Origin: Crocinitomicaceae bacterium
Lineage (GTDB): Bacteria > Bacteroidota > Bacteroidia > Flavobacteriales_D > Crocinitomicaceae
Direction of reading: 5' to 3'
Assembly: GCA_018402525.1 (NCBI GenBank)
Contig: JAGYIR010000010.1
Coordinates: forward strand, 248,001 to 312,000
DNA: 64,000 nucleotides
This document shows positions 14,691-62,289 of this stretch, piece after piece. Made by a program: the position numbers and the translations under genes. Below the pieces are notes generated by a model. The model had not been told where the DNA came from, ran no database searches, and saw only the letters and a list, made by a program, of their open reading frames with translations. The first letter of the stretch is position 1, and every line of letters begins with the position of its first letter.

Positions 14691-14778
14691 TAAAAAGTCT
14701 ATTTTTGGTGAATATGTTCACTAAAAAAGTCTATATTTGGTGAATACGTTCACTAAAAAAGTCTATATTTGGTGAATA
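14691..14778. repeat. 32-bp tandem repeat with palindromic sites and promoter boxes
   Basis: Two full 32-bp units (14691-14722, 14723-14754) and a 24-bp third copy (14755-14778) lie just upstream of the DUF4143 ATPase. Each of the first two holds a dyad GTGAA-n4-TTCAC (14708-14721 and 14740-14753); the third copy ends in a half-site. Each copy also holds an exact TAnnTTTG box (TATTTTTG at 14700, TATATTTG at 14732 and 14764). The last box lies 20 bases before the ATG. This looks like a promoter with repeated operator sites. Confidence 0.7.
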
Positions 14779-14791
14779 GAACAATAAAACC

Positions 14792-48089: not shown

Positions 48090-49284
48090 CTAATTCACTA
48101 TCGCCTTAATCCCAGGCAACTCAATTCCTTCTAAATATTCCAGCATCGCTCCACCGCCAGTTGAGACGTAGCTCACTTTGTCGGCGAGATCAAATTTATT
48201 GATTGCCGCAACAGAATCTCCACCACCGATCAATGAAAATGCACCGCGTTCGGTCGCTTCAACAATGGCATCAGCGACAGCTTTTGTTCCTGCTTGGAAA
48301 TTCTCCATTTCGAACACACCCATCGGTCCGTTCCACAGAATGACTTTGGAGTTTTTAATGATTTCAGCGCAATCTTTTGCTGACTGTTGACCGATATCCA
48401 GTCCCATCCAACCATCGGGAATAGCTGTGACATCGACCTCTTTGCGATTCGCATCGTTATCAAAGGCATCTGCAACAATGGTATCCACGGGAATGTACAA
48501 GTTAATTCCTCTTTCTTCAGCGCGCTCCATGATGTTCTTTGCTACGGATAAAAAATCATCCTCTACAAGTGAGTTTCCAACTTTCCCTCCTTTCGCTTTC
48601 ACAAACGTATAGGCCATTCCACCACCCACAATTAGGTTGTCAACCGTGCTGAGTAAACGCTCAATAATGGTGATTTTCGAAGACACTTTCGCCCCGCCGA
48701 CAATGGCCGTTCAAGGTTTTTCTTTGCTGTTTAAGACTTTATTGACACTTTCAATTTCATCTTCCAAAAGAAAGCCGAACATTTTATCGTTTGGGAAAAA
48801 TTTCGCAATTACGGTTGTACTCGCATGCGCGCGATGAGCCGTTCCGAACGCATCGTTGACGTATACATCGCCATGCTTTGCTAACTGTTCAGCAAAACTT
48901 TCTGTTCCTGTTGTTTCACGCTTATGAAAACGCACATTTTCCAACAACAACACTTCACCTTCTTTCAGTTGTGCACTCATTTCAAACGATTCTTCGCCGA
49001 TACAGTCACCTGCAAATTTTACGTCAACACCCAAGATTTTAGATGTATGCTGCAACAATGTGTTTCAATGAAAAACGATCGTCCAAAGCATCTTTCGGGC
49101 GACCTAAATGCGACATCAGCACTACGCTTCCGCCGCTATTCAAAATATGTTTAATCGTCCGCGTGGCAGCTTTAATCCTTGTGTCATCTGTGATTTGCAT
49201 CGTCTCTTTGTCCAACGGAACATTAAAATCGACACGAATTAAAGCACGTTTTCCAGAAAAATTATAGGTGCGAATATTTTGCAT
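48090..49284 (-). pseudogene. pgk: Phosphoglycerate kinase, interrupted by a 2-base deletion and an in-frame stop
   Basis: PGK converts 1,3-bisphosphoglycerate and ADP to 3-phosphoglycerate and ATP. Reading through both lesions gives a complete enzyme of about 397 residues starting at the ATG 49282-49284. It has [69 protein letters not shown] and [12 protein letters not shown]. First lesion: near 49043-49048 the frame shifts, as if one AC of ACAC were lost (HIVAA-Y-TSKILG expected). Second: a TGA at 48711-48713 in KEKP-stop-TAIVGG, where L or F is expected; TTA to TGA is one change. Every motif is intact, so a recent mutation or sequence error is likelier than an old pseudogene. Confidence 0.9.
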
Positions 49285-49373
49285 GAGTTGTTGTTTTTGA
49301 CAAATATAGTAATCACCCTGCATTCTTGGTGATATAGTTTTGTGTCTGGAAAGGGGAAAGTTGAATCATGATC

Positions 49374-49413
49374 CCTCTGTGCTTTGATTGTACATGTGTG
49401 GACTGTCCTCCCC
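49374..49413. repeat. Repeat A, left copy flanking the DUF559 gene
   Basis: A 40-bp stretch beginning CCTCTGTGCTTTGATTGTA and ending CTGTCCTCCCC. It recurs at 50361-50400 in direct orientation with two mismatches. Confidence 0.7.
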
Positions 49414-49545
49414 CTTTTACCATCAGAAGCTCTCGCTTTTTCTCCTCCAAAGGGGAAACAGAGCCACAACTAATTTTCCTTTAATTTTTCAAGCCCAATT
49501 ATCAAAACCACCGAATGATTAAAAACACAAGGAGGGATTAAATTT
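49414..49545. repeat. Left part of the repeat array, with inverted relative of repeat B
   Basis: CCCCCTTTTACCATCAGAAG and CTCGCTTTTTCTCCTCC read as the reverse complement of the GGAGGAGAAAAAGCGGGAGC part of the units to the right. The block could fold back on them. It also has a diverged ACCGAATGATT copy at about 49510-49520. Confidence 0.55.
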
Positions 49546-49892
49546 CCCCCTTTGGAGGAGAAAAAGCGGGAGCTTTTGATGACCGCAGGGACTGCGACTA
49601 AGGGGGAGGACCCTATAATGAGCTACAACTAATTTTTCTTTTATTTTTTCAAGTACAACTATCAAAACTACCGAATGATTTCCTAACGAAGCGGGATTTA
49701 AATTCCCCCTTCGGAGGAGAAAAAGCGGGAGCTTTTGATGACCGCAGGGACTGCGACTAAGGGGGAGGACCCTATAATGAGCTACAACTAATTTTTCTTT
49801 TATTTTTTCAAGTACAACTATCAAAACTACCGAATGATTTCCTAACGAAGCGGGATTTAAATTCCCCCTCAAGAGGGGGTGCAGGGGGAGGA
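49546..49892. repeat. 159-bp tandem repeat B
   Basis: CCCCC boundaries at 49546, 49705 and 49864 show a period of 159 bp, with two near-identical full units and a partial third that ends in a variant (AAGAGGGGGTGCAGG). The units carry GGAGGAGAAAAAGCGGGAGC, then CCGCAGGGACTGCG, then an ACCGAATGATTTCC motif. A frame through them gives a repetitive peptide and is not a gene. Confidence 0.75.
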
Positions 49893-49909
49893 CCTTCATG
49901 TATATACTA

Positions 49910-50281
49910 CTATCCCCCCTTCTCCTTCAAACAATAAACTGCATGCTGAATCTGAGTGAGAACCTCTCCAAAGTTTTGCATTACCTCACCTTCGTAGAAC
50001 CGCAAAAAGGAATAACCATAAGATTCAAGCTTGTTTTGTCGGTACCGATCGTATTCACCTTTGGAAAAATGTGAACTCCCATCAACCTCTATGATTAGAC
50101 CAATTTCCTGCGCGAAAAAGTCAACAATAAAAAAGTCGATTGGTCTTTGGCGCTTAAATTTTACACCACATTTTGCCTTACTCAACGCATGTTTCCAAAG
50201 GTATTTTTCAGCTATGGAAACCGATTCATGACGCAGTTCGTGTGCGTATTTTTTCAACTGTGGGTTGTATTGATTATTCAT
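49910..50281 (-). CDS. DUF559 domain protein (Vsr-like nuclease fold)
   Basis: A 123-residue protein with the DUF559 endonuclease-like pattern. It has LRHESVSIAEKYLWKHAL, then GVKFKRQRPIDFFIVDFFAQE and LIIEVDGSSHFSKGEYD, with conserved Asp and Glu residues, then the terminal YGYSFLRFYEGEV. DUF559 is related to Vsr and to restriction-type nucleases, and is often found C-terminal in helicases or free-standing. Here it is free-standing between repeats A and B on both sides. Its biological role is unknown. Confidence 0.88.
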   Translation of the reverse strand: MNNQYNPQLKKYAHELRHESVSIAEKYLWKHALSKAKCGVKFKRQRPIDFFIVDFFAQEIGLIIEVDGSSHFSKGEYDRYRQNKLESYGYSFLRFYEGEVMQNFGEVLTQIQHAVYCLKEKGG

Positions 50282-50614
50282 GGTGATGTAGGTTTAGGTA
50301 CTTTAAGATAAAAACAAAAAATGAAATACAGCTTATTAATTAGTGATTTTGGACTGTCCTCCTCTGTGCTTTGATTGTAAATGTATGGACTGTCCTCCCC
50401 CTGCACCCCCTCCAAAGGGGGAAACGGAGTCGAAACTATTTTTTGTTTAACTTTTTATGTAATACGATTAAAAAAACCGAATGATTTTTGACACGAAGAA
50501 GGATTTAAATTCCCCCTTCGGAGGGGGTGCAGGGGGAGGATTTTGGTAATCACCTAGGGAGGACCTGTACAAATCTCCCACCTACAAAACACACATATTC
50601 CCTATATTTACCCC
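50282..50614. repeat. Right repeat block of the DUF559 array
   Basis: No gene is seen. Repeat A recurs at 50361-50400 and a B-type 64-bp segment (ACCGAATGATTTTTG... GCAGGGGGAGGA) at 50477-50540, matching 49829-49892 at the other side of the gene. CCTCCCCC/GGGGGAGG words make several potential stems. The rlmH promoter box lies at the right edge. Confidence 0.7.
50603..50610 (+). promoter_or_regulatory. -7 box of rlmH, leaderless spacing
   Basis: TATATTTA (one base off TAnnTTTG) is followed by four bases (cccc) and the rlmH ATG, the same geometry as in front of plsC, gatC and the SCO1-like gene. Confidence 0.4.
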
Positions 50615-61917: not shown

Positions 61918-62289
61918 ATGAAAAGTCACAAGAATCTAACCGTTTACAAGACCAGTATCCAATTTGTAACAGACATTTATAAACTCACAGAGGGCTTCCC
62001 GAAAACAGAAATTTATGGAATTACGAATCAAATCCGACGGTGTGCAGTCTCCATTCCCTCAAATATTGCAGAAGGAGCAGCCAGAAACTATTCCAAAGAA
62101 AAAATTCAATTTTATCATTATGCCCTTGGTTCAGCTTCAGAATTGGATGCTCAAATAGAAATATCATTACATTTGAACTTCTTAAACGAATCTGATTACA
62201 ACCGCATCAATCGTCAATTGGATTCAGTTTCGAAAATGCTGATGGGATTATTAAAATACGAAAAAGCCAAATTAAATGATAAAAAATAA
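61918..62289 (+). CDS. Four-helix bundle protein (S23 / 23S rRNA intervening sequence family)
   Basis: A 123-residue protein with the family pattern: LTVYKTSIQFVTDIYKLTEGFP near 5-26, then IYGITNQIRRCAVSIPSNIAEGAAR near 34-58 and a third region YHYALGSASELDAQIEISL near 67-85, then two further helical stretches. Homologues are encoded within 23S rRNA intervening sequences of some bacteria and as lone genes in Bacteroidota. Pentameric structure is known for members; role unknown. It lies between hisH and hisF, embedded in repeats on both sides. Confidence 0.92.
   Translation: MKSHKNLTVYKTSIQFVTDIYKLTEGFPKTEIYGITNQIRRCAVSIPSNIAEGAARNYSKEKIQFYHYALGSASELDAQIEISLHLNFLNESDYNRINRQLDSVSKMLMGLLKYEKAKLNDKK

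Follow-up and report, generated by a model that had tools for sequence, protein, structure and literature searches.

The lone DUF559 gene of the 64-kb stretch of DNA analyzed here (the window) and the repeats surrounding it probably form a mobile element, in which a gene for a nuclease of the Vsr-like or homing type is bounded by inverted copies of an intrastrand DNA-triplex motif (TM) and of which solo TMs are non-autonomous derivatives. This reading draws on the linkage of gene and repeats, on the covariation of the blocks that make up each repeat, on the co-occurrence of both partners across genomes and on the movement of the whole unit into new sites.

The gene is flanked by pgk on one side and by an rlmH-like gene on the other (Table 1). 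Its product matches the PF04480 profile with an E-value of 8e-29 (100.1 bits for a gathering cut-off of 20.6), in line with the original prediction of a lone DUF559 gene amid repeats, and an alignment of nine homologues reveals invariant residues that include E25, D54, E65, D67, H71 and D78. In structure comparisons, a Foldseek search among them, the best fold match of the structure predicted by AlphaFold2 (pLDDT 89.6) is the Neisseria DUF559 protein NGO0050 (PDB 3hrl, Z 15.9). The nearest fold relative after this protein is the homing endonuclease I-Bth0305I, whose catalytic domain superimposes with a Z of 12.6 and an rmsd of 1.9 over 94 residues and whose profile also recognizes the window protein (E 2e-7). 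Vsr itself is matched with a Z of 9.7, in keeping with the earlier description of the protein as a Vsr-like nuclease. E. coli YcjD is 34% identical to the window protein (E 7e-21); our literature search returned no paper giving either YcjD or NGO0050 a function. The Caulobacter DUF559 protein VsrA has been proposed to be a mismatch-repair nuclease and is needed for the SOS response of a methyltransferase mutant (PMC12907096), a requirement that, by analogy, is consistent with nuclease activity of DUF559. The window protein presumably cleaves DNA as well.

The repeats around the gene, first described as two separate elements A and B, are copies of a single element of about 149 bp with two inverted arms. 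Each arm consists of a C/G-rich hairpin and a mirror-image third block, which together make up the TM. In the cleanest copy (50393–50541), which is intergenic, 31-bp inverted arms (TCCTCCCCCTGCACCCCCTCCAAAGGGGGAA ... TTCCCCCTTCGGAGGGGGTGCAGGGGGAGGA) enclose a variable middle; the arms (50393–50423 and 50510–50540) are 97% complementary and the DNA fold of the element reaches -40.2 kcal/mol (z -7.6). Repeat A was recovered at 49374 and 50361 as described, with 38 of 40 positions identical. For repeat B the last 48 nt (49845–49892 and 50493–50540) are indeed 90% identical, the 64-bp frame assigned to it being off by a 1-base indel. The additional tandem and inverted copies reported for the left side are likewise present, the two 159-bp units being 96% identical and the inverted arms at 49421–49458 and 49544–49581 being 92% complementary. 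Exact TM matches are found at three sites in the 64-kb window (49864–49890, 50396–50421 and 50512–50537), and since all of them lie at the DUF559 locus and 20 shuffled windows contained none, they are not due to chance.

Table 1. Gene and repeat features of the DUF559 locus, in window coordinates
Feature	Position	Strand	Description
Standalone DUF559 (PF04480) gene	49910..50281	minus	123 aa, Vsr-like PD-(D/E)XK nuclease fold
Complete solo-type element, 149 bp	50393..50541		Two inverted TM arms, ~86-bp middle; upstream of the DUF559 gene
TM arm	50393..50423	minus	Triplex strand on minus, 50396-50421: CCCCCTTTGGAGGGGGTGCAGGGGGA
TM arm	50510..50540	plus	Motif 50512-50537: CCCCCTTCGGAGGGGGTGCAGGGGGA
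TM arm	49862..49893	plus	Motif 49864-49890; follows the stop codon of DUF559 by 16 bp
Element copy, long-loop variant	49405..49611		Arms with an extra ~40-nt insertion, two further hairpins
159-bp tandem duplication, unit 1	49527..49685		Element middle and arm
159-bp tandem duplication, unit 2	49686..49844		96% identical to unit 1
Repeat A, left copy	49374..49415	plus	Runs into an element arm
Repeat A, right copy	50361..50402	plus	Runs into the arm at 50393

At many loci the arms share one layout, with a head followed by a hairpin in the direction leading away from the gene, and their sequence differs by clade. The head mirrors the hairpin's purine arm, with A standing for A or T, as in the pairs AAGGAGGGG with GGGGTGG, GGGGAGG with GGAGGGG and GGGAAGG with GGAAGGG, and this mirroring gives the arms the pattern of an intrastrand triplex. 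Of 80 hairpins, which represent 23 distinct purine blocks, 39% come with a perfect third block, against 3% after the tails had been swapped between blocks, and none of 1000 tail permutations reached the observed mean. The tail swap was preferred to a permuted-mirror test, which is weak since G-rich permutations often match. As far as can be judged from sequence, the third block changes in concert with the hairpin, which is a triplex pattern going beyond that of a plain hairpin. The window locus contains all of its parts, namely a pyrimidine block, a complementary purine block and a mirror third block. The same blocks, often arranged as inverted pairs, compose the BoxC/PIT/TMECO repeats of E. 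coli (Holder et al. 2015, PMC4666352), which have been known in this species since the 1990s and are reported from more than 260 genomes. Only the E. coli motif has been shown to form a triplex in vitro (PMC4666352), the window arms being known from their sequence. Whereas the E. coli repeats are of undescribed spread, the TMs considered here go together with DUF559 and also insert in frame within genes in other phyla. The authors of PMC4666352 report having found no mobility genes near TMs, and the text of that paper yields no match for nuclease or ycjD. In the searchable open-access literature we found neither an account of how TMs spread nor a paper linking DUF559 to palindromes, repeats, mobile elements, BoxC or triplex.

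The suggestion that nuclease and repeats belong together is strongly supported. Standalone DUF559 genes carry TM-type arms on their flanks in a set of 119 related genomes, and when a uniform test (exact 6-nt blocks, 400 bp range) is applied to related genomes, a TM is present at 20 of 25 DUF559 loci (on both sides in 14), compared with 1 of 25 S23 loci and 0 of 25 GIY-YIG loci. A wider set, composed of loci found by protein pattern alone and of relatives, gives 71 of 88 DUF559 loci versus 2 of 88 distal controls situated 1.5 kb away and 0 of 88 shuffled sequences, the set being biased to one part of the family by a query pattern derived from three closer DUF559 proteins. Flank repeats accompany 36 of 47 DUF559 genes and 7 of 87 intergenic-only controls. 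Outside Bacteroidota a TM was found at 11 of 14 DUF559 loci, and the pairing extends to Cyanobacteriota, Deinococcota and Pseudomonadota, with examples in Photobacterium, Azospirillum, Sphingobium, Sinorhizobium, Neisseria, E. coli, Pseudanabaena, Synechocystis and Deinococcus, the locus of the last having long inverted ends. The YcjD and NGO0050 families each have a TM nearby; at ycjD it lies on one side only, and the BoxC copy beside this gene is itself a TM. In a Mantel test the type of flank tracks DUF559 phylogeny (r 0.30, p 0.002), which is not the case for distal sequence (r 0.02, p 0.31). DUF559 genes lacking the repeats, named in the original prediction as evidence against the link, amount to about a fifth (~20%) of loci, where no TM was detected, the rest having one.

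A parallel had also been drawn with the S23 locus of the window. S23 genes of the window's family, which code for a four-helix bundle and include the one at 61918–62289, have inverted low-complexity flanks that differ by locus and are reminiscent of a separate mobile gene. In detail the parallel fails, and it was rejected on the basis of the single TM among 25 S23 loci and of the flanks of 30 S23 loci, which are unrelated low-complexity inverted repeats; a loose likeness remains.

The number of TMs varies with the presence of DUF559. In the family to which the window belongs, three or more TMs occur in 16 of 27 genomes with DUF559 and in 4 of 45 without (p 7e-6), and a sample of the phylum, scored with a different motif, gives 34 of 170 versus 2 of 126 (p 3e-7), both p values being confounded by shared ancestry of genomes that are not independent. 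Within the window's genus alone the figures are 7 of 10 and 1 of 24. In E. coli, 3330 of 5426 genomes possess the ycjD region (match covering at least 80%), and in a spread sample, confounded by phylogroup, the median number of BoxC copies is 20 in the 37 genomes that have ycjD and 4 in the 21 that lack it (p 4e-9). TMs do occur without DUF559, in the 4 of 45 family genomes mentioned above and in ycjD-negative E. coli, which have up to 21 copies. A genome-wide search for the repeats, proposed at the outset together with the idea that repeats frequent without DUF559 would speak against the link, had a mixed outcome: solo copies are common, the source genome having about 17 dispersed, mostly solo copies and one DUF559 gene, and they lie mostly in genomes bearing DUF559. 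In ycjD-negative E. coli, efflux-pump genes stand beside sapF in place of ycjD, and an empty site was not seen among the loci compared. A RAYT was considered as the mover of the TMs and rejected, given that the presence of a Y1 transposase does not explain their number: in the family, three or more TMs occur in 15 of 40 genomes with Y1 and in 5 of 32 without (p 0.06), and four TM-rich genomes with DUF559 have no Y1 match.

Further evidence comes from the sites at which the unit is found. Complete arm-DUF559-arm units lie in frame at two sites within a type IIG restriction-methyltransferase; at the first of these a 5-residue linker takes the place of the unit in a homologue of 93% identity, and another homologue contains the TM-type peptide alone. 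In leuS, in a TPR/PP2C-like gene, in the linker of metH and upstream of ribD, DUF559 is likewise found in frame, bordered on one side or both by C-rich hairpin sequence. The metH gene is uninterrupted in 55 of 56 matching relatives, and the right-hand TM of its insertion has decayed. One genome has two DUF559 copies in different contexts that are 99.4% identical over 341 bp, the identity ending just past the downstream TM. Palindromic elements lie in frame within host ORFs at nine loci of relatives, and the insertion sites of DUF559 are many and unrelated (metH, leuS, ribD, PP2C-like and type IIG genes, intergenic regions). Whole units in frame inside host genes imply that the unit moves, so that comparison of these loci establishes the TM-DUF559-TM unit as mobile, reading frames being among its targets. 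The nuclease itself may maintain, cut or spread the repeats, as first suggested, a role that goes beyond the mobility seen here. Comparison of strains with and without the insertion, which had also been suggested, produced no clean pair of empty and occupied sites with a target-site duplication, either at metH, where the site is too diverged, or at the E. coli sites. The polymorphic sites ytfR-ytfQ and yhjG-yhjE of E. coli exchange whole intergenic segments, simple insertion being absent from both. Such intergenic sites hold either BoxC or BIME/other sequence, swapped as a whole. The linker of the type IIG enzymes (ELLKNAYY / LxTLPNIDINIKCGN) accepts many unrelated in-frame palindromes across Bacteroidota, with or without DUF559. 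An 1800-bp stretch that includes a fragment of DUF559 is identical in two different genomes of the family, owing either to recent transfer or to contamination of metagenome-assembled genomes.

Movement of the unit most likely proceeds as follows. Once single-stranded, as may happen on the lagging strand, the C/G-rich arms would fold into a hairpin or triplex; the DUF559 protein would recognize the folded arm and nick or cut at the arms or at the target; and repair or recombination would then copy the unit to other sites. Solo pairs of inverted TMs, among them the approximately 17 copies of the source genome and BoxC in E. coli, would be mobilized in trans, in much the same way as RAYT transposases mobilize REPs, the enzyme being unrelated. 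Recognition, cutting and transfer are steps that we infer. We know of no covalent DNA intermediates formed by PD-(D/E)XK enzymes, and for this reason a strand-transfer route is hard to see for DUF559.

It is also conceivable, albeit unlikely, that DUF559 is cargo or a hitchhiker in TM-rich hotspots and that the TMs are moved or kept by Y1/RAYT, by host recombination or by triplex instability. This would agree with the link of TMs alone to genome instability and unstable loci in E. coli, for which the mechanism was left open (PMC4666352), with the solo TMs kept by some DUF559-free genomes and with the unrelated palindromes accepted by the type IIG linker. On the other hand, other lone small genes of the same genomes lie outside TMs, as seen for S23 and GIY-YIG, the number of TMs follows DUF559 better than Y1, their type tracks the DUF559 phylogeny, and the unit moves whole. 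This explanation and the two that follow are all disfavored by the specificity controls and by the in-frame units. DUF559 as a Vsr-like host repair nuclease, countering TM instability and retained in TM-full genomes without being a mobility enzyme, appears improbable: its Vsr-like fold and the role proposed for VsrA would suit such a function, but TM borders are not required of a housekeeping repair gene, nor is joint travel with TMs into metH, leuS and restriction genes, and its closest fold relative after the Neisseria protein is a homing endonuclease. Least probable of all are TMs that act in cis on DUF559 as terminators, mRNA stabilizers or autoregulatory sites, with solo copies as relics of lost genes; gene-adjacent hairpins often serve as terminators and TMs often lie 20–120 bp from the gene on both sides, but a terminator has no need of the DNA-triplex covariation seen in the third block, and in-frame copies within host ORFs cannot be terminators. 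Earlier work in E. coli, insofar as it is quoted in PMC4666352, detected neither a promoter nor a terminator effect for the motifs.

Viewed as a mobile element, the TM-DUF559 unit has in common with the REP/REPIN and RAYT systems that palindromes occur as inverted pairs, that many copies are non-autonomous and that one or a few genes for a partner enzyme lie between repeats. There the partner is an HUH/Y1 transposase, whereas here the gene between the repeats codes for an unrelated Vsr-like nuclease and the repeat is a triplex motif. The EDxHD (Vsr-like) homing endonucleases, among them I-Bth0305I, have the same fold and insert in frame into conserved genes, but the DUF559 element is devoid of an intron or intein, comprises the catalytic domain only, occupies many unrelated sites and has TM flanks. 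In-frame insertion into protein genes is also common to the Rickettsia palindromic elements (PMC10969869), which have no nuclease gene, in contrast to the autonomous TM-DUF559 copies. We consider it an evenly balanced question whether TM-DUF559 constitutes a bacteria-wide mobile class, with a nuclease of the Vsr/homing type that recognizes triplex or hairpin ends and with BoxC/PIT and the 'CCCCTCC...GGAGGGG' repeats of Bacteroidota, Cyanobacteriota and Deinococcota as its non-autonomous copies, mobilized in trans. To our knowledge, no element has been assigned to DUF559, a very widespread family of small proteins, and linking it to TMs gives each partner a candidate role. The pairing can be tested in E. 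coli K-12, which has ycjD and about 20 BoxC copies. If true, it would represent a new kind of partner-enzyme/repeat system, one that also gives rise to in-frame insertions in core genes, and DUF559 might be a protein that recognizes triplex DNA in vivo.

Two other features of the window may be mentioned. The pgk gene next to the locus (48090–49323, minus strand) reads as broken, the frame changing near 49058 and a TGA lying in frame near 48712, which reflects either sequencing error or a pseudogene. At 14692–14787, three 32-bp tandem repeats (AAAAAGTCTATTTTTGGTGAATATGTTCACTA) lie immediately upstream of an ATPase-like gene.
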